This document shows positions 7,950 through 63,373 of a DNA stretch of 64,000 nucleotides, one piece after another. The DNA lies in NCBI GenBank assembly GCA_037481695.1, contig JBBFLE010000001.1, positions 440,989 through 504,988 on the forward strand, read 5' to 3'. Each line of letters begins with the position of its first letter. The first letter of the stretch is position 1. The stretch is from a bacterium. Lineage in GTDB: Bacteria > Desulfobacterota > Desulfocorpusculales > Desulfocorpusculum. A model generated the notes under the pieces. That model was not told where the DNA came from and ran no database searches. It saw only the letters and a list, made by a program, of their open reading frames with translations. The translations under genes and the position numbers were made by a program.

Positions 7950-8510
7950 ATGAAATTAGCAGTCGAGGATTTTTTAGGGAAGCGAACCCTCATAGTGGGG
8001 GATGTTAACTCTGGGAAGACTACCCTCAGCCAGGCCATCTTGGATGAGTTTTACCGAAGGGGAGTCGGCGGAAACATATTGATCCTGGATCTGGCGCCTG
8101 AGATTCCCGTCCACCTGGCAGCTTCCAAGGGATTGAGGGGAGTAGGCGGCACCTTGAGGCCCGCCCAGGGAGAGAGATTCAGGTACTTGAGGCCGACTCT
8201 GGTGCCGCCGCGACTCATGGGCACCAGTCACAAAGAGATTCTTGAAATGGCCAAGGCAAACCTTCTGGCCATAGAGGAGGTCATGGGCCAAACCTGGGCA
8301 GAAAAAGAGACCATCTTCCTGAACGATGTGAGCATGTACCTGCAGGCTGGCTCAGCCCAGAGGCTCTTTTCATGGCTGCAGGCCTTCCATACGGTGGTGG
8401 CCAACGGTTACCTGGGCAGAAGCTTGGGAGAGGGGGAGCTTTCTTGGCGGGAACGATCTCAGATGGAGACTCTGGCCGCACTCTTTGACCGGGTATTGCG
8501 ACTGGGCTGA
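7950..8510 (+). CDS. P-loop NTPase of unknown function
   Basis: The 186-residue protein has a Walker A motif near its N-terminus, IVGDVNSGKTTLSQAIL (about residues 15-31), and a Walker-B-like strand NILILDLAPEIP (about 42-53). A C-terminal strand ETIFLNDVSMYLQ may add a second acidic site. The layout is that of a small NTP-dependent enzyme or single-domain GTPase/kinase-like protein. I cannot name the family. The ATG at 7950 is chosen because the 133 codons upstream in the same frame shadow the DUF2284 gene. It stands between DUF2284 and thiD-thiN and is probably co-transcribed with both. Confidence 0.75.
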   Translation: MKLAVEDFLGKRTLIVGDVNSGKTTLSQAILDEFYRRGVGGNILILDLAPEIPVHLAASKGLRGVGGTLRPAQGERFRYLRPTLVPPRLMGTSHKEILEMAKANLLAIEEVMGQTWAEKETIFLNDVSMYLQAGSAQRLFSWLQAFHTVVANGYLGRSLGEGELSWRERSQMETLAALFDRVLRLG

Positions 8511-8586
8511 TTACGGAAAGCCCGGTCTGTGGAGAAAAGCGGCCTCATGTGCCTAGCAATTCTGTTTATGGGAAAGGAACTGATCC

Positions 8587-9924
8587 ATGAAGAGGATTCT
8601 AACCATAGCCGGCTCAGACTCAGGTGGAGGAGCTGGCATACAGGCAGATCTCAAGACCATAACTGTGTTGGGCGGCTATGGCATGAGCGTGCTGACGGCT
8701 CTTACTGCCCAAAACACCAGGGGGGTCTACGGGGTTCATCTGGTGCCAGCCAAGTTTGTAAAAGAGCAGATGGATGCTGTTCTGGGTGACATAGGGGCCG
8801 ACGCAGCCAAGACCGGAATGCTGGCCACAGCCGAGATCGTGCGGGCCGTGGCACAGGGGATAAAGGAGCACAAGGTGGAGCTCCTGGTAGTGGATCCTGT
8901 TATGGTGGCCAAAAGTGGTGACTCTTTGCTGTCAGAAGAGGCTGTTGAAGCCCTCTGTAAAGAGCTGCTACCCCTGGCTTATGTGGTCACCCCTAACCTG
9001 CCCGAAGCAGCCAGGCTGGCCGGAATCCCTGTGAGGGATCCAAAGGACATGGAGAGGGCAGCCCGAATCATCCACTCCATGGGACCTCGCCATGTGGTTG
9101 TAAAGGGAGGGCACCTGGAGGATGAACCGATGGATCTGGTCTTTGACGGCGAGTCTGCTCATCTTCTCCCCGGGCACAGGTTGGCCTCTCGAAACACCCA
9201 CGGCACTGGGTGTACTTTTTCGGCTGCCCTGGCCACTTTCCTGGCACAGGGACAAGACCTCAGGCAGGCTGTGGCAAGCTCCAAGGAGTTTGTGGCCAGA
9301 GCCATTGCCACTGGAGTTCCCTTGGGCAAAGGATTTGGACCCACCAATCCTTACGGGGAAGTGCTCAGGTGGAGGGAAAGACAAAATGTGCTGGATGAAC
9401 TCACAAAAGCGCTCCAAACACTGCAAGACCAACCTCTGGGGGAACTCATCCCCGAGGTCAGATCCAACCTGGGTTACGCTCTGCCAGGCGCCCAGAGCTT
9501 CCATGAGGTGGCGGCTGTACCAGGCCGCATAAGCCAGGTGGGCAAAAGGATTCTCGTTTCCATGCAGCCAGCCTTCGGGGCATCCCGCCACATAGCCAAA
9601 GTGATACTGGCCGCCATGCGCCATGACCCGGCCATGCGCTCTGCCATGAACATTAGATACTCCAAAGAGGTGATAGAAGCCTGCCAAAGGGCCGGGCTGA
9701 TCCTGGCCCATTTCCATCGCACAGAGGAGCCCAGGGAAATAAAAGAACAGGAAGGCTCCACACTGGAGTGGGGCACCGACAGAGCCATATCAATGCTGGG
9801 CAAGATCCCGGATGCCATCTATGACAAGGGAGATCTGGGCAAGGAGCCCATGGTGCGCCTGCTTGGCAAGACCCCTGAGGAGGTGGTGCAAAAGCTCCTG
9901 GAGGTGGCCAAGGCCATCTCTTGA
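8587..9924 (+). CDS. thiDN: ThiD-ThiN fusion: HMP kinase/HMP-P kinase with thiamin-phosphate synthase domain
   Basis: The 445-residue bifunctional enzyme has an N-terminal ThiD ribokinase-type domain (about residues 1-265). It shows ILTIAGSDSGGGAGIQADLKT, DPVMVAKSGDSLL, PNLPEAARLAG and the anion-hole/catalytic motif NTHGTGCTFSAALA. A C-terminal ThiN domain (about 275-445) carries EVRSNLGYALPGA, GRISQVGKRILVSMQPAFGASRHIAKVIL and EWGTDRAISML. ThiD phosphorylates HMP twice; ThiN condenses HMP-PP with thiazole phosphate, replacing ThiE. This fusion is common in archaea and some anaerobes. It fits the upstream ThiW importer, since imported thiazole would be used here. AAGGAAC precedes the ATG at a fair distance. 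It is full length. Confidence 0.95.
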   Translation: MKRILTIAGSDSGGGAGIQADLKTITVLGGYGMSVLTALTAQNTRGVYGVHLVPAKFVKEQMDAVLGDIGADAAKTGMLATAEIVRAVAQGIKEHKVELLVVDPVMVAKSGDSLLSEEAVEALCKELLPLAYVVTPNLPEAARLAGIPVRDPKDMERAARIIHSMGPRHVVVKGGHLEDEPMDLVFDGESAHLLPGHRLASRNTHGTGCTFSAALATFLAQGQDLRQAVASSKEFVARAIATGVPLGKGFGPTNPYGEVLRWRERQNVLDELTKALQTLQDQPLGELIPEVRSNLGYALPGAQSFHEVAAVPGRISQVGKRILVSMQPAFGASRHIAKVILAAMRHDPAMRSAMNIRYSKEVIEACQRAGLILAHFHRTEEPREIKEQEGSTLEWGTDRAISMLGKIPDAIYDKGDLGKEPMVRLLGKTPEEVVQKLLEVAKAIS

Positions 9925-54649: not shown

Positions 54650-55357
54650 TCAAAGACTCTCCATGGGAGTCCCTTGCCGGGGTGGCCGGTCCTCCACTAT
54701 TTGGCCGTCTACCATCCGAAGTATCCTGTCGCAAAGCCGGGAGCTCCTGGGACTGTGCGTGGCCATTATTAGAGTTGCCCCGCTTTCACGGCAGCTCTTG
54801 GAAAGAAGCTCCAGTACAAGATCCCCTGTCAACGTGTCCAGGCTGCCTGTGGGCTCGTCGGCCAGCACCAGCTCGGGCTCTTTTACCATTGCTCTGGCAA
54901 TTGCCACCCGCTGCTGTTCGCCACCCGAAAGCTGGTATGGAAATCTATCCTCCTTCCCTTCCAGGCCCACCTCGGCCAAGGCTCTAAGAGCCTTCTTGGG
55001 GTCGGGGGATCCTGCCAGCTCAAGGGAAAGATGCACGTTTTCAAAAGCCGTAAGGGTTGGAAGCAGGTTGAAAAACTGGAAAACAAATCCGATCCTTTGG
55101 CGCCTGAGTCGGGTGCGGCCCGCCTCCCCCATCTTCTCCAGGTCTTGACCGCAAATCACAATTCTGCCTTTGCTGGGCCGGTCCAGTCCTGCTATCAGGT
55201 TCAAAAGGGTGGTCTTACCCGAACCGCTTCTGCCGTAAAGTGCCACCACTTGACCGGCCTCTATCTGTAGATTGGCTCCTCTTAGCGCGGCCTGGGCTGA
55301 GCCCTGCTGCCCATCGTAATGCTTCCAAAGGTTCTCCCCCACGATGGCTTGATTCAT
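54650..55357 (-). CDS. ABC ATPase of the FtsX-type exporter (LolD/MacB-like)
   Basis: The 235-residue ABC ATPase has Walker A GRSGSGKTTLLNLIAG, Q-loop GFVFQFFNLLPTLTAFENV, signature LSGGEQQRVAIARA and Walker B LVLADEPTGSLD. The NLLPTLTAxENV segment is typical of LolD/MacB-type ATPases. GAGGAGG before the ATG at 55357 sets the start; an upstream ATG at 55399 lacks this. It opens the three-gene operon with the permease and lipocalin-like protein. Confidence 0.95.
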   Translation of the reverse strand: MNQAIVGENLWKHYDGQQGSAQAALRGANLQIEAGQVVALYGRSGSGKTTLLNLIAGLDRPSKGRIVICGQDLEKMGEAGRTRLRRQRIGFVFQFFNLLPTLTAFENVHLSLELAGSPDPKKALRALAEVGLEGKEDRFPYQLSGGEQQRVAIARAMVKEPELVLADEPTGSLDTLTGDLVLELLSKSCRESGATLIMATHSPRSSRLCDRILRMVDGQIVEDRPPRQGTPMESL

Positions 55358-55655
55358 TCCCAATGCCTCCTCACTGGAATGGGCACTTGTAAGAAGCATA
55401 GCGCCTGCATAACGCTCTTAACAGTCCTGAGGAGCTCAGATTGGGCTGTATTGAACTTTATGCATTTCCCTCAGTCCCTTCTGCGATCCCCTATGCCACC
55501 CCTAACCCCAAAAAGCGGACACATCACTTGCTATATCAACCGGACATTTCACATGCTAACGACAAAAACCACAGTCGGCCTTGACTTGCGGGATTGAATG
55601 AGATATAGGGCATAGCGAAAATAGAAGACAACGGATAGAATTCAAACGGCCTTCC
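55358..55655. other. divergent intergenic region
   Basis: About 300 bases lie between the ABC exporter operon (minus) and the Lon/sigma operon (plus). It is richer in A and T toward the right-hand side than the flanking genes. Promoters for both operons should lie here. No operator dyad was spotted. Confidence 0.45.
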
Positions 55656-56135
55656 ATGAAAAGAGCTTCCAATGATTTGTTGGAGGAGTTGAAACGCCTG
55701 GCCCTTGTTAAAGACTTTTCAAGGAGATCTTCGCGTACCGTAACTCGAGAATATGTAAGGGAAAAATCGTACGTGGGCCATTTTGAACAAATAGACGACT
55801 TAAAAGGCCATCTCTTTTTGATCGGCAATGAATACCTGGGTATCTCTAGAGAGGCTAAGCTAAGGCACCCATGTTGTGTGATCTTCGAAATAACTAGAAA
55901 GGTAGGAGTCAGCAAGGGGACTGACCCAAGACATATCAAGCCCTCATACAGGGATTTCTATGTTATAGTTAAACCCGATGCTCAAAACGGCCTTAAAAAA
56001 CCGACTGCTTTCGATCCTTTCTTGAGAGAAATACCTACCAAGGCGATTTTCGGCGAAGACTACATGGGCTCCTTATCTGATAAGGATCTTCAACGCCTGC
56101 TGGAAGCGGTGAAAAGGCATGCCGGTAAAAGCTAA
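55656..56135 (+). CDS. MazF/PemK-like protein, first gene of the Lon-sigma operon
   Basis: The 159-residue soluble protein is not assigned with certainty. The C-terminal 110 residues read like the MazF/PemK beta-barrel: GHLFLIGNEYLG, then LRHPCCVIFEITRK with Arg70-His71-Pro72 (the RP of MazF), FYVIVKP, NGLKKPTAFD and the closing helix MGSLSDKDLQRLLEAVKRHAG. In MazF the equivalent is IGxLSxxELxxVxxAL. An N-terminal basic segment of about 45 residues is extra. RNase activity would need Arg70 and a downstream Ser/Thr; this is unverified. It may be a toxin or a binding partner. The sigma-like gene overlaps its end by 17 bases. Codon use seems more AT-rich than in neighbouring genes. Confidence 0.6.
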   Translation: MKRASNDLLEELKRLALVKDFSRRSSRTVTREYVREKSYVGHFEQIDDLKGHLFLIGNEYLGISREAKLRHPCCVIFEITRKVGVSKGTDPRHIKPSYRDFYVIVKPDAQNGLKKPTAFDPFLREIPTKAIFGEDYMGSLSDKDLQRLLEAVKRHAGKS

Positions 56136-57066
56136 AACCAACATCTGGGAAGAACCGTTCGGTTTCAGGATCGAGCTTGTTCGCTGCCAACAAAAAGGCG
56201 GTATTACAGAAGGTTTTATAGATAAACTAAAGGATTTGGTGCGGGCCAAAAGACCCCGATCTGAATCCCCTGGCCTTTACGGTTTGGAATCGGAGACCTG
56301 GGACGAATCGGCGATCCATGAGCTGGCCTTGAACTTTTTGACTGAACATCTCTTATCAAAAAACGGACCCAAGCTTCCATATATCAAGGAAAGTGCAGAT
56401 CAGGGTGTCCCTGTGGATGGCTATGTGATAGAGGTCTTCAAGCAGTTCCTGGCTGAAATCAAGAGAAGAAAGGTCCCCCATCGTTGGAACATGAGAAAAA
56501 GGATACTCCAGGTACTAAAGGAGATGGAAAGCCAAGGCAAGTTGGTCCCCTGCCAAAAGTTCAGCGGATCCTGGAGGAGCTCGGCAAACAGCTATGAAGA
56601 AAGGGTTGAGATGGAACACCTCCGTTCCATTGCTAATCTTTTACCCAACGTGGAGAAAAAGATTTATGTAGAGCAAGAGCGCATGCATCCGGTCCTGGAC
56701 AACAGAGAGCTCTCTAGACTTGTAGATGGGGTTTTCGAACTAGTCAGCGGTTGCGTCTCAGAGGAGGAGTTGGTGGAGTTTTTGCTTGAGCAATTGCAGG
56801 TCAGCGATCCATCTTTCCAGTATTTGGAGGACCTGCTCACTGAGCGCAGCGAACATGAGTTCGCACAAAATCAAGCCATGTCTCCAGAGGTTAGGCAAAG
56901 GCTCAAGAGAGCCATAGAAGGACTGTGTCCTAGACAAAAGAAAATATTTAATATGAGGTTCCTGCAGGAAATGTCCATCCCAGAGATTTGCTCAGTTATG
57001 GGACTTGGCAAGACAGTAGTTTACCAAGAAGTGGCCAAGATTGAACGTAGGCTAAAGGGTTTTTGA
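56119..57066 (+). CDS. sigma-70-like factor with region 4
   Basis: The 315-residue protein has a clear C-terminal sigma region 4 (about residues 259-315): RLKRAIEGLCPRQKKIFNMRF, then the helix-turn-helix SIPEICSVMGLGKTVVYQEV (286-305) and AKIERRL. The middle part has a possible region-2-like helix pair (YVIEVFKQFLAEIKRRKVPHRW, about 109-130, trimmed here to its core FKQFLAEIKRR). The N-terminal 90 residues match nothing I know. Most ECF sigma factors are about 180-200 residues, so this one has large extra segments, perhaps for binding the partner proteins. It overlaps the MazF-like gene and is followed after 57 bases by the next gene. It probably directs transcription of defence or stress genes when released. 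Confidence 0.75.
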   Translation: MPVKAKTNIWEEPFGFRIELVRCQQKGGITEGFIDKLKDLVRAKRPRSESPGLYGLESETWDESAIHELALNFLTEHLLSKNGPKLPYIKESADQGVPVDGYVIEVFKQFLAEIKRRKVPHRWNMRKRILQVLKEMESQGKLVPCQKFSGSWRSSANSYEERVEMEHLRSIANLLPNVEKKIYVEQERMHPVLDNRELSRLVDGVFELVSGCVSEEELVEFLLEQLQVSDPSFQYLEDLLTERSEHEFAQNQAMSPEVRQRLKRAIEGLCPRQKKIFNMRFLQEMSIPEICSVMGLGKTVVYQEVAKIERRLKGF

Positions 57067-57123
57067 AAATCGGAAAAAGAGAGCCTTTCGCCGTTTATCA
57101 CCTTTAGTGAAAAGGTGTGTGCC

Positions 57124-58062
57124 ATGAACAAGGATTTTCTCGATAATGAAATCAATTCCCGGTTCAGGGAGATTATCCGAAGAATGAAGGAAAAACCCAC
57201 CAGAATCCCGAAGGAAGGAGACTGCTTCTTCCTCAATGCCCCTACCCTTAGACCATTGGATGAGCCTAACCGAGCCTTGGTTGTTGCTGTAGAGATGACA
57301 GATAGTGGGCTCTTGATATGCCTATTGATGTCCTTGGAATACTGGGAGGCATCCGAGTTCGATTACATGTTGGACTCCACGGAATGGACTGGGGGCTACC
57401 CAGTCATAGTGGAGGCCTGGAATCCAATTGTCATCGCGCCTGACGAGCTGGGTTGCATTCCAATTCATGGCGAGCTTGGGGCAGAAGCCTTGGAAAGGAT
57501 CCGAATTCTTTTTCATTGCCACCAGTCTGGAGAAAGGGTCTCATCCAGCGTGGAGGCGGTAGGGAGGGCCTTGGAAGACGAAGGGGATCCACGCTGGGAT
57601 TTTCGAGCTAAAGAGGCTGCCATATTGGAGAGGGTGCGACGCCATTACCATGAGGGTTGGGATGTGGCGGTAATTGAATTGCCCAGACGGCCTAGCCCTA
57701 AGGGGAGGCAGGTGCCAGTGGCAGCAGCCAGCGGGGACCTTCCAACAAGGCTGCAGGCAGAACTGAAGGCCCAGGAGTTAGACCGAGAAGTCCTAAGCAC
57801 ACCTCGTGGAAAGATTCTTGTTCGCAGAGATTCTTCTTTGCCGGGCTACCTTTTCATTTGGTATTCCAAGGAAGGGTATCCGGCCCCAGAGGTAGAAGCT
57901 GATCCCCCTCTGGAACCCCCTCCAGAAGGCCCTTCCGGCCGGGTTCAGGTTGCACTTGGCTTTTGGAGAGACCAATTGTTGGATAAAGAGCCAATACTGA
58001 GACTTCGCTCGGAAGCTGTATCCAGGGATATCTTGGTGCGCCTACCCAAGAAAAGGAAATGA
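57124..58062 (+). CDS. unknown protein with MazF-like N-terminus (possible sigma partner)
   Basis: The 312-residue protein is not recognised by name. Residues 28-130 read like a second MazF/PemK barrel: KEGDCFFLNAP (GD motif), LDEPNRALVVAVEM with Arg50, ICLLMSLEYWEASEFDYML, PIVIAPDELG and HGELGAEALERIRILF, the closing GxL...L helix. The middle is helical and charged. A Pro-rich stretch (EADPPLEPPPEGPSG, about 265-280) precedes a short C-terminal strand-rich end GRVQVALGFWRDQLL. It lies between the sigma and Lon genes, and its TGA overlaps the Lon ATG. By position and size it is a candidate anti-sigma and protease substrate, like the MazF homologue CalpT. AAGGTG six bases before the ATG at 57124 fixes the start. 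Confidence 0.55.
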   Translation: MNKDFLDNEINSRFREIIRRMKEKPTRIPKEGDCFFLNAPTLRPLDEPNRALVVAVEMTDSGLLICLLMSLEYWEASEFDYMLDSTEWTGGYPVIVEAWNPIVIAPDELGCIPIHGELGAEALERIRILFHCHQSGERVSSSVEAVGRALEDEGDPRWDFRAKEAAILERVRRHYHEGWDVAVIELPRRPSPKGRQVPVAAASGDLPTRLQAELKAQELDREVLSTPRGKILVRRDSSLPGYLFIWYSKEGYPAPEVEADPPLEPPPEGPSGRVQVALGFWRDQLLDKEPILRLRSEAVSRDILVRLPKKRK

Positions 58063-59873
58063 GAACAGAGTTTGAAATTCTCCATATCTTGGGTTATCCC
58101 GAAAACCCATTAGAAGCACTTCGAAGGATTATGTTGCTTCATCCCCGCTCCCCCAAAGCTGAGCGCCGCAAGCTCGTTTCAATTCAGTTTCTGGTTCAAG
58201 ACCCTGAATTCAAAGTGTACCCTGCTGCTTGGAAGCAGTTGCTTTCAGAGTCTTTATTACCTCCCTACATTCTTCCCAATGAGGTCTGTACCCCTTCGGG
58301 GTGGCCAATCCCTGTTTTCCTTGAGAGGGCTGGCTGTGGAGGGGTCATCCATGTCACGTACGAGAATGGGGGCCAGGAGAAAAAAGGCCACAGGCTTGAT
58401 TTTGCTGCTGCAATGGAAGTTTTCCTGGAAACTTGTTCAAATATCGGCGAGACAGCTTTTCCCAATTCTTCTTGTTTTCCTTTCGCAGCCAGGGTCAGAC
58501 CTGGAATAAGCGTGGATGGTAGATCTTGGGAGCTTTCCTGTCTTGTGGGTTACTTTGCTGTCCACTCCCAAAAGGAGATAGCGCCTGTATTCACTACCGG
58601 GGCCATTAACTCAGACGGGTCATTGGTTCCTGTGGAAAGGGTACCCGAAAAGATTAAAGGATGGCTTCGGGAAGTAGGCCCGGGAGGGGTTGCTCTGATC
58701 CTCGAGGAACAACAAGAGAAAATTTGGCCTTTCAAGGGACAGTTCCACCAGATTCGAGTTATTCGAGATCTTTCGGATCTGGTGGAATGTTTCAGGGAAT
58801 GGGGCTGGTTGCAACCCCATCAAAAGCCACCTACTAGGCTGCGCTTGGAAAGAATGCTCAGGGAGAGCGAGGCTTGGTACCGCCATGGCAGACCCAAGCT
58901 CGCTCTTCGCACACTTGAGGCTGTGCACAGGCACAAAAGAGAGCTCACGCCAAGGCAGAAAATTTTGTTCCTCGACGGCATGCATTACCTGAATTCTTGT
59001 TTCGGGCGTTTTGACAAGGGTCTGCTGTTCCTAAAGAAGATGAAAGCTCTCCTGGAGCAAGAGCCAAATCTTCTCAGCCCAGATGAAAAGGCGATCCGGA
59101 TGGCCAAAGCTGCGGTACAGCTTTATGACGCTCATCTTTTCAAGAATGCGGAAGAGCTTCTGCGGCCGTTGCTCGAGAAGAGCACGCTTTCTGGACTCTC
59201 AGAAGTTTCCCGGGCAAAGCTCTTAGGAGCATTGGGCCAGGTACTGACTGCTGTGGGTGATTATGAAGAGGCAGCTTCACTTCTTGCTGAAGCAGTCGAG
59301 ATTTTCAAGGCAATTGAACCTTTGGAGGTGTCAAGGGCTTACAACTACTTGATTCACAACAGGCTGCGGGCTGGGGATCTTACGAAAGCACAAGATTTAC
59401 TGTTTGAATCTGAAGGATGGATTGAGGAGACAGACACTTACGGCAAACTCTTTCGTGCTTTTTACCGGGCCGAGCTGGACAGGAGGTACAAACGTCCATC
59501 CCCTCGGCCAAAACTGCCTGAGGGATACCCAGGACTGATCCATCCATATGCATTCGCCTTACAGGCTTGGGCGAGGAATCTGACTCATCTTGCCAAAGAT
59601 CGCAAGGAGGCTATCGAAGAGGCGGCGGATAGACTTGAGCAGGTCCCTGCCAAGGGGGGGGTCCTAGAGTTTTTGGCTCACACTTACAGAGTCTACAAGG
59701 CCGTACTGCTCGCAGAAGAGGATTCGTTTCGCAAGGCAAGAAAAAACTGGCAGACATGGTTGGATCAACATGGTAAAAGCCCCTTTAAACACAGATACCA
59801 GCAAATCCCCTTTGAACTGGAAGAGGCCAGAACGTATATGGATGAACTGATGGATCGTATCCCCTACCACTAA
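58059..59873 (+). CDS. Lon-type protease domain fused to TPR-like repeats
   Basis: The 604-residue protein has three parts. Residues 1-110 are an unknown domain. Residues about 110-235 form a Lon (S16) serine-lysine protease: catalytic Ser156 in GISVDGRSWELS, TTGAINSDGSLVPVERV and Lys198 in ERVPEKIKGW. The Ser-Lys spacing of 42 residues agrees with Lon (679 and 722 in E. coli). No AAA+ ATPase or substrate-threading domain is present. Residues about 256-600 are helical pairs of TPR type (for example AEAWYRHGRPKLALRTLEAV, LGALGQVLTAVGDYEEAASLLAEAVEIF). ATPase-free Lon domains are used as signal-activated proteases, for example CalpL. The ATG overlaps the previous stop. It is the last gene of the operon, and the CRISPR array starts 460 bases on. 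Confidence 0.85.
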   Translation: MRTEFEILHILGYPENPLEALRRIMLLHPRSPKAERRKLVSIQFLVQDPEFKVYPAAWKQLLSESLLPPYILPNEVCTPSGWPIPVFLERAGCGGVIHVTYENGGQEKKGHRLDFAAAMEVFLETCSNIGETAFPNSSCFPFAARVRPGISVDGRSWELSCLVGYFAVHSQKEIAPVFTTGAINSDGSLVPVERVPEKIKGWLREVGPGGVALILEEQQEKIWPFKGQFHQIRVIRDLSDLVECFREWGWLQPHQKPPTRLRLERMLRESEAWYRHGRPKLALRTLEAVHRHKRELTPRQKILFLDGMHYLNSCFGRFDKGLLFLKKMKALLEQEPNLLSPDEKAIRMAKAAVQLYDAHLFKNAEELLRPLLEKSTLSGLSEVSRAKLLGALGQVLTAVGDYEEAASLLAEAVEIFKAIEPLEVSRAYNYLIHNRLRAGDLTKAQDLLFESEGWIEETDTYGKLFRAFYRAELDRRYKRPSPRPKLPEGYPGLIHPYAFALQAWARNLTHLAKDRKEAIEEAADRLEQVPAKGGVLEFLAHTYRVYKAVLLAEEDSFRKARKNWQTWLDQHGKSPFKHRYQQIPFELEEARTYMDELMDRIPYH

Positions 59874-60335
59874 TTCTCGGTAAGATGAAAGTGTTCTTTG
59901 AAAGTAGAGGTGACAAAAATGTTGTGAAGCTATTAAAGGGAAATCAGATGCGAACGCGGCGTCACTCCATGGAATGAGTTCTTGGGCCCTCGAAAATCGT
60001 ATTAGGGGAGTGATTATCAAGGGAGGTGATCTTCTATATCACCGGAACTTGACATCAAGGATGCTTTGGCCTAGAGTTCGAGGGAAACTGAAAGATGTGA
60101 TTAGTAAACCCCTGTAGGTTTTTTCAACATAGAGCTAAGTATTTGTTTTTCTTTCTTTTTGTTGAAATCGGGTTCGCGAGGTTTACTAATGCCAGAAAAT
60201 CGCATGATATTGAAGCCTTGCAATATCGGTCCTACAAATTTGTATGATAAGTTTGACCTTGTCTGGGGCAAAATTGGGAGGTTTACTAATCGCCGTCTGC
60301 AAACCCGCACCAGCACTGGGCTCGTACGGGGTGCT
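59874..60335 (+). other. leader region of the CRISPR array
   Basis: The 462 bases before the first repeat are the likely leader, because the opposite end of the array is degenerate and the repeat's 3' end ATTGCGAC faces away. It contains an inverted-repeat-bounded segment (60099-60291, separate entry). No gene or cas remnant is recognised. Confidence 0.6.
60099..60291. repeat. 193-base segment bounded by 12-base inverted repeats
   Basis: GATTAGTAAACC at 60099-60110 and its perfect reverse complement GGTTTACTAATC at 60280-60291 bound the segment. An extra direct copy, GGTTTACTAAT, lies at 60180-60190. It could be a miniature inserted element within the leader or paired protein-binding sites. 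No target-site duplication was established. Confidence 0.6.
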
Positions 60336-61330
60336 GTCCGAAGATAGCCCCGATCACAAAGGGGATTGCGACTGGACTTTCCACAGGGCAGAGCCCTCAC
60401 GCAAATTCGTCCGAAGATAGCCCCGATCACAAAGGGGATTGCGACGGGTAGCGGGTGCTCAAGCACCCACCACCCCGGGTAGTCCGAAGATAGCCCCGAT
60501 CACAAAGGGGATTGCGACATATAGCTCTTTATGAGCTATATTTCGTGCTTCTTGTCCGAAGATAGCCCCGATCACAAAGGGGATTGCGACTCTAAAAGCT
60601 GAGAAGGGTGGAATCCTGACAAGATATGTCCGAAGATAGCCCCGATCACAAAGGGGATTGCGACGAGGGGATAGAAAATGAAGGCGGGCACCCCGCCTTG
60701 GCGTCCGAAGATAGCCCCGATCACAAAGGGGATTGCGACGTTGATATGAAGTTCTTTACTGCAAGCTTGTTTTGTCCGAAGATAGCCCCGATCACAAAGG
60801 GGATTGCGACCGTGCAGTCTCCCGCACAAGAGTCTGAAGCGCCGGAGTCAGTCCGAAGATAGCCCCGATCACAAAGGGGATTGCGACATGGTGCCACGGC
60901 GCGACGTGGCATTGAAAATCCGGTCCGAAGATAGCCCCGATCACAAAGGGGATTGCGACAACGTGAAGTCGAACACCCACTTGGAGTTGACCATCAGGTC
61001 CGAAGATAGCCCCGATCACAAAGGGGATTGCGACTTATATCCTCGGCCAGCTTTCCTTCCCCGTCCAAGCTGTCCGAAGATAGCCCCGATCACAAAGGGG
61101 ATTGCGACTCTCTCAGACGACCCAGGACCGCATCGAGATTTACCTGTCCGAAGATAGCCCCGATCACAAAGGGGATTGCGACCTTCTTGTCCTCTTTCTC
61201 TCTTTTCTCTCCGCCATGGGTCCGAAGATAGCCCCGATCACAAAGGGGATTGCGACAGCCTTGAGCAATCCAAGGCCCTTGGGCTTCTCCTTCGTCCGAA
61301 GATAGCCCCGATCACAAAGGGGATTGCGAC
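60336..61330 (+). CRISPR. CRISPR array, 14 repeats of 37 bases, 13 spacers
   Basis: The repeat starts GTCCGAAGATAGC, continues CCCGATCACAAAG and ends GGGGATTGCGAC. All 14 copies appear identical by eye, starting at 60336, 60409, 60482, 60554, 60628, 60703, 60774, 60851, 60923, 60998, 61072, 61146, 61220 and 61294. Spacers are 34-40 bases. The repeat's 3' end ATTGCGAC resembles the ATTGAAAC tag of many type I/III repeats, supporting plus-strand orientation. CCCC and GGGG inside the repeat can pair around nine bases. No cas gene lies within the window. The type therefore cannot be assigned. A truncated repeat follows at 61544-61571. Confidence 0.97.
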
Positions 61331-61543
61331 CCTGGGGCTTCGCCCGCACAGAGCACGGAGCACAGAGCACAGGGTCCAAAACAATCTTCAACGGGCCAGC
61401 CTATCGGCTCATTTCTCGGCTTACATTCACACATCTCGTTCAGGATCCCAGCCGAGCGGTTTCTAAAAGCCTCTTCTTAGGTTTTCCCCAGAGGTTTTCT
61501 TGTTGCTTTTAGCTCTGTGCCCTGTGCCCTGTGCTGCTTCTGC
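61331..61543. repeat. hairpin element, copy 1, at the distal end of the array
   Basis: A left arm with repeated GAGCACAGAGCAC-type units (about 61344-61374) faces a right arm CTCTGTGCCCTGTGCCCTGTGC (about 61514-61535). The middle is unlike a gene. Copy 2 at 61572-61795 shares both arms but a diverged middle. It abuts the last full CRISPR repeat. Confidence 0.6.
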
Positions 61544-61571
61544 TAGCCCCGATCACAAAGGGGATTGCGAC
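61544..61571 (+). CRISPR. truncated CRISPR repeat
   Basis: The 28 bases from TAGCCCCGATC to ATTGCGAC equal the last 28 bases of the array repeat. It stands 213 bases beyond the last full repeat, between two copies of the hairpin element. It is a degenerate distal relic of the array, or was carried there by the duplication. Confidence 0.85.
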
Positions 61572-61795
61572 CCTGGGCTTCGCCCGCACAGAGCACGGAG
61601 CACAGAGCACAGGGTAAAGACCAAACTACTGGCGGGCTGCTCCACCGGCTCATTTCCTGGCGCACGCACCAGCACCTCGCTCCGGATCCTGGCCAAAGGC
61701 CTTCAGGAAACTTCCTACACGAACCTTGGCCCGTATGCTCTGTGCCCTGTGCTGCTTCTGCTAGCCCTGTGCCGCTTCTGCTAGCCCTGTGCCCA
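61572..61795. repeat. hairpin element, copy 2
   Basis: It begins with the same GGGCTTCGCCCGCACAGAGC region as copy 1 and closes with CTCTGTGCCCTGTGCTGCTTC. The closing arm holds a further tandem repetition of GCTTCTGCTAGCCCTGTGCC-type units (about 61751-61795). It appears to be a REP/BIME-like or MITE-like element. No gene is encoded. Confidence 0.55.
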
Positions 61796-62050
61796 CAGGC
61801 GTTGAGCTTGCATTGGGGTTTGGAGAACCTATAGTTTTACCTGGTTCTGGAAAGGTTAGAGTCTTTGGGCAATTCGGATTTGAAAAATGCTGTGGCGATT
61901 GGTTGCAAAATTGGAGAAAATGTTCTAGAAAGTACTAAACTTTCTTTCCTTTTTGACCGGGGCAAACGTTCAAGCTAGTAGCTCTCTAATTCAACTTAAA
62001 ACAGATCCTTGGGCGCATTATGAAAAGAGTCATCTTCAGGAGGGGGAAAG
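61796..62050. other. intergenic region before the propeller gene
   Basis: About 255 AT-rich bases hold the presumed promoter of the next gene and end in a GGAGGGGG ribosome-binding site. Nothing else is recognised. Confidence 0.4.
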
Positions 62051-63373
62051 ATGATGAGAAAAGCCTTCTTAGTCATCGGGTCATTGGCTTGTATAGGCAT
62101 TCTCGGCTGGCGTGTTGAAGCAGCCCTCCTCTGGGAAAGCCATTACGACCGCTCGGCCAACGGTGAGGACGTGGTCAACGCCATGGCCGTAAAGGGTAAC
62201 ACCGTCTTTGCTGCCGGATACACTTCTACCACCGAGGGTGGAAGGGCATTCACCGTCAGGGCGTACTCTTCTCAGGATGGATCGGTTCTTTGGGAAGACC
62301 ATTACGACCGTGAGGGTACCGGTGCGGATGTCGCTAATGCTCTGGCCCTAAAAGGCAACATACTCTTTGCTGGAGGTTACACGTCCACGGCCAGTGGGGG
62401 AAGAGCCTTTTCGGTGAGAGCTTATGACGTAACCAATGGATCTCTGCTTTGGGAAAGCCATTACGACCACCAGGGTTCATACAACGATGAGGTGAAGGCC
62501 CTGGCGGTGAAGGGCAATGTGTTAATCGCTGGCGGTTTTGTCTCAACAGGTGGAGGTTCGGCGGCCTTTGCCGTAAGAGCTTACTTCACAAAAGATGGTT
62601 CTTTGCTTTGGGAGGATGTCTATGATCCAGGTACAAGTGTTGATGAAGTCAATGCTCTTGCGGTTAAGGGGAATACGGTGTTTGCGGGTGGGTTGGCAAG
62701 GGGCGCTTTTACTTTAAGAGCCTATTCTATCAAAAAAGGCCTTCTTATATGGGAGGATGTTTACAATCGGGAGGGGGGTGGCGCTGACCTCTTATACGCT
62801 TTAGCAGTAAAAGGCAACAGAGTCTTTGCAGGCGGTTATACGGAGACCGTGTCGGGTGGCAAAGCTTTTACTGTAAGGGCTTACTCGGCCAAAGATGGTT
62901 CGTTGCTTTGGGAGAATCATTACGACCGGGAAGGCGCTCTAAGGGATGAAGTGCGAGCATTGACAGTTGCGGCAGGGGTTGTGATTGCAGGGGGAAACAC
63001 AACATCATCCTTCGGTGGGAGTTGCTGGAGTGTGAGAGCTTACTCTCCCCAAAACGGCACGCTTCTCTGGGAAGACCAGTACGACCGGGAAGCGAGCAAC
63101 GCCTTGGATGGGATTTATGCTCTGACAGCCAAGGGAAGTATTGTCTTTGCCGGAGGGTACACCCAAACGTCGGCTTCTGGATATAGTTTCAGCGTCCGGG
63201 CCTACACAGCCAAAAAAGGAACCCTGTTGTGGGAGGATCACTATGATAGGGAAGGCACCAGGAACGATTTTGTCTATGCTTTGGCTGTTGGAGGAAACAA
63301 GGTTTTTGCGGGAGGTTTTACGGAGACTACAGCTGGGGGTCGAGCCTTTAGCATCAGGGCCTATGATTTTTGA
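62051..63373 (+). CDS. secreted eight-repeat beta-propeller protein
   Basis: The 440-residue exported protein has a signal peptide (residues 1-24, ending RVEAA). Eight tandem repeats of about 53 residues follow. Each starts LLWExxYDRE, continues with DxVxALAVKGNxVFAGGYT and ends GGxAFxVRAYxxKDGS. The number and strand pattern suggest an eight-bladed propeller related to PQQ/WD40-like folds. No enzymatic residues or anchor are seen. The role is unknown; such proteins bind ligands or partners in the envelope. The repeats are close to each other in sequence, which suggests recent internal duplication. AGGAGG precedes the ATG. Confidence 0.85.
   Translation: MMRKAFLVIGSLACIGILGWRVEAALLWESHYDRSANGEDVVNAMAVKGNTVFAAGYTSTTEGGRAFTVRAYSSQDGSVLWEDHYDREGTGADVANALALKGNILFAGGYTSTASGGRAFSVRAYDVTNGSLLWESHYDHQGSYNDEVKALAVKGNVLIAGGFVSTGGGSAAFAVRAYFTKDGSLLWEDVYDPGTSVDEVNALAVKGNTVFAGGLARGAFTLRAYSIKKGLLIWEDVYNREGGGADLLYALAVKGNRVFAGGYTETVSGGKAFTVRAYSAKDGSLLWENHYDREGALRDEVRALTVAAGVVIAGGNTTSSFGGSCWSVRAYSPQNGTLLWEDQYDREASNALDGIYALTAKGSIVFAGGYTQTSASGYSFSVRAYTAKKGTLLWEDHYDREGTRNDFVYALAVGGNKVFAGGFTETTAGGRAFSIRAYDF

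Follow-up and report, generated by a model that had tools for sequence, protein, structure and literature searches.

The present analysis addresses a stretch of 64,000 nucleotides (nt), hereafter the window, from the 4.1-Mb genome of a bacterium of the genus Desulfocorpusculum (assembly GCA_037481695.1, contig JBBFLE010000001.1, positions 440,989 to 504,988; G000:C1:440989-504988 in our numbering), and more precisely a group of four genes, A to D, followed by an array of clustered regularly interspaced short palindromic repeats (CRISPR). These genes encode in particular a sigma-like protein and a probable Lon-type protease carrying tetratricopeptide repeat (TPR)-like helices, and they are arranged as in the loci of type III CRISPR that encode the Lon-SAVED protease CalpL, activated by cA4, the anti-sigma factor CalpT and CalpS, a sigma factor of the ECF type (Calp loci). 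The features are as follows (protein lengths in amino acids, aa):

55656 to 56135, + strand: gene A, 159 aa, in the place of the small gene "a" upstream of CalpS
56119 to 57066, + strand: gene B, 315 aa, sigma-70 family with region 4 at residues 259-311, in the place of CalpS
57124 to 58062, + strand: gene C, 312 aa, in the place of CalpT (anti-sigma factor), candidate protease substrate
58059 to 59873, + strand: gene D, 604 aa, Lon-type domain and TPR-like helical part, in the place of CalpL
59874 to 60335, + strand: leader-like stretch between gene D and the CRISPR array
60336 to 61330, + strand: CRISPR array, 14 identical 37-nt repeats and 13 spacers of 34-40 nt

The open reading frame (ORF) of gene C extends from 57115 to 58062, its start probably being the ATG at 57124. 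The overlaps measure 17 nt between A and B and 4 nt between C and D, while the largest gap, between the stop of B and the ATG of C, is 57 nt. The layout given in a preliminary description of the window made from its sequence alone, i.e. four closely packed genes of the same strand with two overlapping pairs, was thus recovered in full, as was the CRISPR array that it had placed just downstream, which begins 462 nt after the stop of D and whose 14 repeats are all perfect. In our judgement, four such consecutive overlapping ORFs with a significant sigma match and a TPR part do not result from chance.

Two systems, CalpL-CalpT-CalpS and Craspase, are each described as releasing a sigma factor through proteolysis (excerpts of PMC11417357, PMC12751052 and PMC10028731). 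Genomes carrying CalpL, a Lon-SAVED protein, were found with the PADLOC CRISPR-Lon model (E<=1e-12): CalpL is encoded by 4 of the 390 genomes of a draw from the phylum and by 9 of 30 genomes of one family, i.e. by ten genomes, as three are shared. The corresponding stretches of all ten genomes were compared, the one of genome G135 being limited to the rear part of CalpL. These loci are arranged as "a" (122-150 aa), CalpS, CalpT, CalpL and then usually cas10. The "a" gene is found in seven of the eight loci that cover the stretch upstream of CalpS and is absent from locus L042, and the CalpS gene of locus L043 is not one open frame. A cas10 gene, confirmed by profile, follows CalpL in eight of the ten loci (in L033, after an intervening 133-aa ORF), while L042 and L044 display no cas10 within the approximately 1 kb covered downstream of CalpL. 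Neither CalpL nor CalpT was found on plasmids. The operon of the window shows the same order, small protein-S-T-L, as seven of these eight loci, with somewhat larger proteins: CalpS has 227-246 aa and CalpT 259-277 aa, versus 315 aa for B and 312 aa for C.

The preliminary description had recognized in D an ATPase-free Lon domain with Ser156 and Lys198, 42 residues apart, and this is confirmed. The domain covers approximately residues 65-245 (limits set by eye), and its family matches are weak but correctly placed: CRISPR-Lon (E=0.0024) and SAVED_LON (E=0.019) in PADLOC and LonB (E=0.13) in NCBIfam. As a scale, a true CalpL reaches just E=0.043 with the Pfam family Lon_C. Single E-values being modest, it is the combined evidence that identifies the domain with its Ser/Lys dyad. 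In rank tests in which each gene was set among 131 ORFs of at least 150 aa (132 entries in all), D came first against the CalpL Lon domains, and none of 150 shuffles scored as high. The HHalign score of D is 32.3 with CalpL versus 18.5 with 27 ordinary Lon domains, and D is top by score among 360 ORFs, a set that contains some duplicates because the window and locus L018 overlap. BLASTP of D against one CalpL aligned the lysine motif (48% across 21 residues, with a pairwise E of 0.010). In the genome itself, D (E=0.0071 with the CRISPR-Lon profile) outscores four ORFs of Lon size (816-836 aa) and is outscored by a 1159-aa ORF and by a SAVED protein. Furthermore, the catalytic serine of D is followed by an aromatic residue (GRSWEL), like that of nine CalpL (G[KDE]SFML), whereas the six ordinary Lon proteases printed carry a GPSAG motif. 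The distance from the serine to the TG pair is 24 residues in D, 25 in five of the six ordinary Lon proteases and 21 in CalpL, so that D is in this respect nearer to ordinary Lon. On the whole, these sequence comparisons indicate that the protease of D is probably a Calp-type Lon, closer to CalpL than to ordinary Lon.

The remainder of D, approximately residues 255-600, is a TPR-like helical part. TPR_12 matches residues 352-418 (E=4.4e-5, under the Pfam cut-off), and a single-sequence structure model of D (mean predicted local distance difference test, pLDDT, 51) displays a helical solenoid at about residues 260-470 with block pLDDT of 55-85, whose closest folds are the TPR domain of MalT, LGN, IFIT1, designed pentatricopeptide repeat (PPR) proteins and NprR. 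The proposed fusion of Lon to TPR-like helices therefore stands. Structure prediction, a check named in the preliminary description, was informative for this TPR part, whereas the Lon part was poorly modelled and the model of C was meaningless. Neither Pfam nor PADLOC scans gave a SAVED match or a convincing CARF match in D, in agreement with the preliminary description, and Pfam, NCBIfam and PADLOC scans gave no CHAT match. A PADLOC CARF-HEPN model that matched across the TPR region (E=0.48) was taken as chance. The sole SAVED match of the genome belongs to a 582-aa ORF (E=2.9e-25) at 161.6 kb of the contig (locus L108, G000:C1 ~160.2-163.7 kb); this locus, where the ORF adjoins another that reads as nucleotidyltransferase-like, is probably a cyclic oligonucleotide-based antiphage signalling system (CBASS). 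The TPR part, predicted to stand in the place of SAVED, is the real novelty of the operon.

The sigma region-4 protein announced by the preliminary description is gene B, which matches sigma-70 region 4 (PF08281, E=5.7e-9) and, just under the cut-off, TIGR02937 (E=2e-10). B is thus sigma-like and stands in CalpS position, but its relation to CalpS is weak and it is not clearly CalpS. Gene A matches none of the families of Pfam, NCBIfam and PADLOC at E<=1, but it ranks 1/132 against the "a" proteins of Calp loci (shuffle p 0.026); the hidden Markov model (HMM) of "a" also places it first among the 360 ORFs, yet with 2.0 bits and E=3.6. By its sequence, A is likely the counterpart of "a". The "a" genes (loci L031, L032, L033, L040, L041, L043 and L044) have themselves no Pfam family (two tested) or PADLOC family (one tested), and their product may be a fourth Calp component. 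In an HMM test with 1500 shuffles, the matching pairs gave p values of 0.022 (A), 0.031 (B), 0.053 (C) and 0.0027 (D).

Gene C, without family match in Pfam, NCBIfam or PADLOC scans, would be the candidate substrate. It carries the motif AAASG at residue 200, and a cut there would yield pieces of 23.0 and 12.6 kDa. In eight of nine CalpT, by the motif search used, a sequence similar to AASSK starts at residues 181-195, where a cut would give 21-23 and ~9 kDa. CalpT is reportedly cut at about Ala195. The predicted 23.0-kDa piece of C matches the 23-kDa fragment reported for CalpT, which is described as cleaved into pieces of 23 and 10 kDa (excerpts of PMC9704534 and PMC12751052). The status of C as counterpart of CalpT is unproven.

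A and C had also been presented as two MazF/PemK-like proteins, which is unproven. Neither matched the PemK family in Pfam scans, and against an alignment of MazF from related genomes (30 MazF loci fetched, of which 17 passed extraction) A ranked 11/360, by its C-terminal end, and C 207/360. This test is insensitive, because true CalpT, like "a", also fails it, and a MazF/PemK-like fold of A is possible, although unproven. The 23-kDa part of CalpT has been reported as MazF-like (excerpts of PMC9704534). It could then be imagined that A and C are MazF-like toxins of a toxin-antitoxin-like module, from which D releases a toxin while B only autoregulates. The C-terminus of A does align, not significantly, with a C-terminal MazF stretch, and the MazF-like description of the CalpT fragment was the first one; but the scores of both A and C against PemK/MazF lack significance and current descriptions make CalpT an anti-sigma factor (excerpts of PMC12751052), so that we regard such a toxin module as very improbable.

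Beyond the window, the same contig carries a type III-A CRISPR-Cas locus (Cas10, Csm2-5). Its Cas10/Csm1 ORF (E=1.9e-171) starts 11.5 kb after D on the same + strand and is followed by Csm2, Csm3, Csm4, Csm5, two CARF-HEPN proteins (Csx1 type), Csx20, a CRISPR-associated PrimPol and Cas1, while Cas6 is encoded on the opposite strand. After cas1 lies a second array, of eight repeats, and its repeat is identical to the one found downstream of D, where the type III-A repeat is therefore in use. The linkage of the operon with cas10 is thus present but looser than in true Calp loci, where 44-67 bases (seven loci) or 461 bases (an eighth) separate CalpL from cas10. The operon is probably an accessory of this downstream system.

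The reading that we favour, with somewhat more confidence than doubt, is that the operon works like Calp, as a protease-to-sigma switch in which TPR has replaced the sensor domain. In the resting state, the sigma-like protein B would be kept inactive through a partner, which is most likely C but possibly A. Binding of a trigger, which might be the Csm complex itself, a phage product or a host peptide, to the TPR part of D would activate the ATP-independent Lon domain (Ser156/Lys198), which would cut C, perhaps at AAASG, into pieces of about 23 and 13 kDa. B would then be freed and could redirect transcription in an antiviral response. The role of C as anti-sigma factor and substrate is inferred, as are the place of the cut, the trigger, the part played in defence and the control by the III-A complex. 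The preliminary description had also seen a protease-to-sigma switch in these genes, but as a third one, independently assembled. The switch is retained, a Calp-type one being the best reading of the gene order, the CalpL-like Lon and the III-A locus; independent assembly is disfavoured because the four-gene order is shared and the protease is CalpL-like. Indeed, the likeness to Calp includes the four-gene order, an ATPase-free Lon with a serine followed by an aromatic residue, an alanine-rich motif around residues 181-200 of the third protein and the type III-A neighbourhood. The differences are the TPR part instead of SAVED, a third protein that is not detectably CalpT, the larger size of B and C, the distance to cas10, and the sigma regions, B having a clear region 4 and no detected region 2 while region 4 is missing from both of the CalpS tested, one of which carries region 2. 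As a SAVED domain and similarity of the third protein to CalpT were both tested and not found, the operon is not filed as a member of Calp.

A series of results weighs against this Calp-like switch. As to D, Pfam Lon_C gave no match (E<=1 with the whole protein, E<=10 with a fragment), no Lon chain was found among PDB sequences at E<=1, and the Lon region has pLDDT below 50 in the single-sequence model. In the 360-ORF comparison, two distinct array-derived ORFs beat D on HHalign E-value and probability, the CalpL HMM gives D E=1.4, behind one array-derived ORF listed twice, and the ordinary Lon HMM gives it E=5.1, in fifth place. As to B, no sigma region 2 was detected in family scans, the comparison with CalpS ranks it 3/132 (shuffle p 0.38), and in the 1500-shuffle test the non-matching pair of A with CalpS (p 0.002) does better than B with CalpS. 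As to C, the CalpT family CRISPR-T (PDLC01048) gives no match at E<=1, versus 5.8e-57 for a true CalpT; C ranks 27/132 against CalpT (shuffle p 0.52, not beyond chance), is absent from the matches of the CalpT HMM at E<=10, and reaches no better than E=0.45 in BLASTP against one CalpT. The shuffle p of 0.0008 for AA[AS]S near the expected place in C concerns a motif chosen after looking, and the structure model of C is useless (mean pLDDT 35). Finally, the interval from D to cas10 contains a transposase-like gene, the gene of a repeat protein and several others of unrelated appearance (the non-cas names coming from reading of the ORFs), so that the operon and the cas genes may simply lie near each other.

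These intervening genes would also agree with a switch that serves a stress or peptide-sensing circuit rather than CRISPR, its TPR part binding a peptide or protein and the array lying beside it by chance. The fold matches of the TPR part, which include peptide-bound NprR and Rap and also MalT, point in the same direction, as does the lack of a recognized cyclic-nucleotide sensor in D. Nevertheless, the gene order equals that of Calp loci, which adjoin cas10 in eight of ten cases, and the type III-A repeat is that of the array immediately downstream of D; such a circuit outside CRISPR is therefore judged unlikely.

Within the Calp-like switch, it may be proposed, as a tentative idea about which we are more doubtful than confident, that the TPR part senses a protein (RNA-bound Csm complex or phage product), so that no cyclic-nucleotide sensor is needed and the recognition of a target would be converted directly into transcription. 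In another alternative, the Csm complex or Cas10 would serve as docking site for the TPR part, and D would be activated directly by target-RNA binding, in the manner of TPR-CHAT with Cas7-11, without second messenger. The position of TPR in the place of SAVED, in a Calp-like operon near a type III-A system, is compatible with this, and TPR-CHAT is described as sitting on an RNA-guided effector and cleaving a sigma factor inhibitor (excerpts of PMC10028731). Against it, the complex encoded nearby is Csm instead of Cas7-11, and the III-A locus encodes CARF-HEPN proteins and Csx20, which suggests that it probably makes cyclic oligoadenylates (cOA); direct docking is thus considered doubtful. In the TPR part, the preliminary description had seen the sensor type of type III-E systems, i.e. 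of Craspase (Cas7-11, TPR-CHAT/Csx29, Csx30, CASP-sigma). This link is not upheld, since it rests only on the common TPR: in both cases a protease bearing TPR shares its operon with a sigma factor, but the protease is here a serine Lon, in contrast with the caspase-like CHAT, and the nearby effector is Cas10-Csm. Csx30 and Csx31 were not recognized in family scans of the operon proteins, no search having been aimed at them.

Relatives of the operon were searched in several sets. D matched itself only among 198 genomes (E<=0.001), and B itself only among 395 genomes (E<=1e-7). Five weak matches of C among 395 genomes (E<=0.01; at most 21.1 bits over 36-54 residues) were rejected as chance. No relatives of A-D were found in viral contigs, none of D, B and C on plasmids, none of D and B in phages, and a scan of genome contigs with D gave no relative. 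A degenerate DNA pattern written for the active site of Lon had one match, in an unrelated gene and attributed to chance; the silence of this pattern is a weak argument because it demanded one exact spacing and a tryptophan. A profile of D and nine CalpL Lon domains, run on 390 genomes of the phylum at E<=1e-4, matched 47 of them: the genome studied here, the four with Calp and 42 others. The frames of these 42 have the size of full-length Lon (754-941 aa), except one of 470 aa. Not counting the latter, 24 of them were fetched as loci, and a GPSAG-like motif is present in every one. Judged by frame length, with motifs checked in these 24, no second TPR-Lon was recognized among the 390 genomes. 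No TPR-Lon sigma operon was met in searches of the open-licence texts of PubMed Central.

The composition of the operon differs from that of its surroundings. Its G+C content is 0.44-0.53 (third positions 0.46-0.54), versus third-position values of 0.63-0.69 in five of six other window genes measured, the sixth, at 62051, having 0.51; four cas genes are intermediate (0.56-0.65). This low G+C fits with a horizontal gain, without proving it. The gene at 62051-63373 encodes a 440-aa protein with seven repeat copies spaced 141-162 nt. A sigma-70-like promoter match, TTGACA-17-TAGAGT, occurs at 60049-60077 (10 of 12 positions); it is weak and the number of such sites in the region is at chance level (five found, 4.2 expected). 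No Rfam family matched in 55000-62000. Partial copies of the CRISPR repeat (26-28 bases) occur outside the arrays, at 61544-61571 of the window, where the copy adjoins a repeated element with CAGAGCACGGAGCACAGAGCACAGGG, and at G000:C1 ~530592-532215. The same genome carries a second CRISPR-Cas locus (L020, G000:C7:60000-79999) with its own cas1 and, as far as its ORFs can be read by eye, long arrays with a different repeat. In L018, adjacent small ORFs at 8461-9160 read as nucleotidyltransferase-like and HEPN-like, possibly a toxin-antitoxin pair.

Caspase and Lon families stand among the cOA-activated effectors of a 2025 classification (excerpts of PMC12669027), a survey of type III effectors gives CalpL in 17 loci (excerpts of PMC11229360), and a 2022 review mentions predicted CARF-Lon fusions (excerpts of PMC9704534). 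In another genome of our set (G360, contig C38, locus L077, 4253-7112), a sigma-like ORF (named from reading, with weak HTH-type PADLOC matches only), a zf-HC2 anti-sigma-like protein (E=6.8e-7) and a Lon-CARF fusion (Lon_C, E=4.6e-10; Csm6 CARF, E=1.3e-9) stand in a row, about 3.7 kb from an eight-repeat CRISPR array (48-596) and near a 666-aa CARF-type protein. Like the operon of the window, this one has a Lon protease fused to a variable sensor, here with an anti-sigma-like and a sigma-like gene beside it, but it differs by its CARF sensor, its zinc-finger protein, its Lon motif (GGSIGL) and the lack of a gene recognized in the place of A. This suggests that such combinations arose or diversified more than once.

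Globally, the release of sigma factors by proteases is a recent subject in the study of CRISPR immunity. If the operon has kept the protease and the gene order while changing the sensor, it would show that this module is exchangeable, and it raises the question of whether a type III system may signal to transcription by protein contact rather than by a second messenger.

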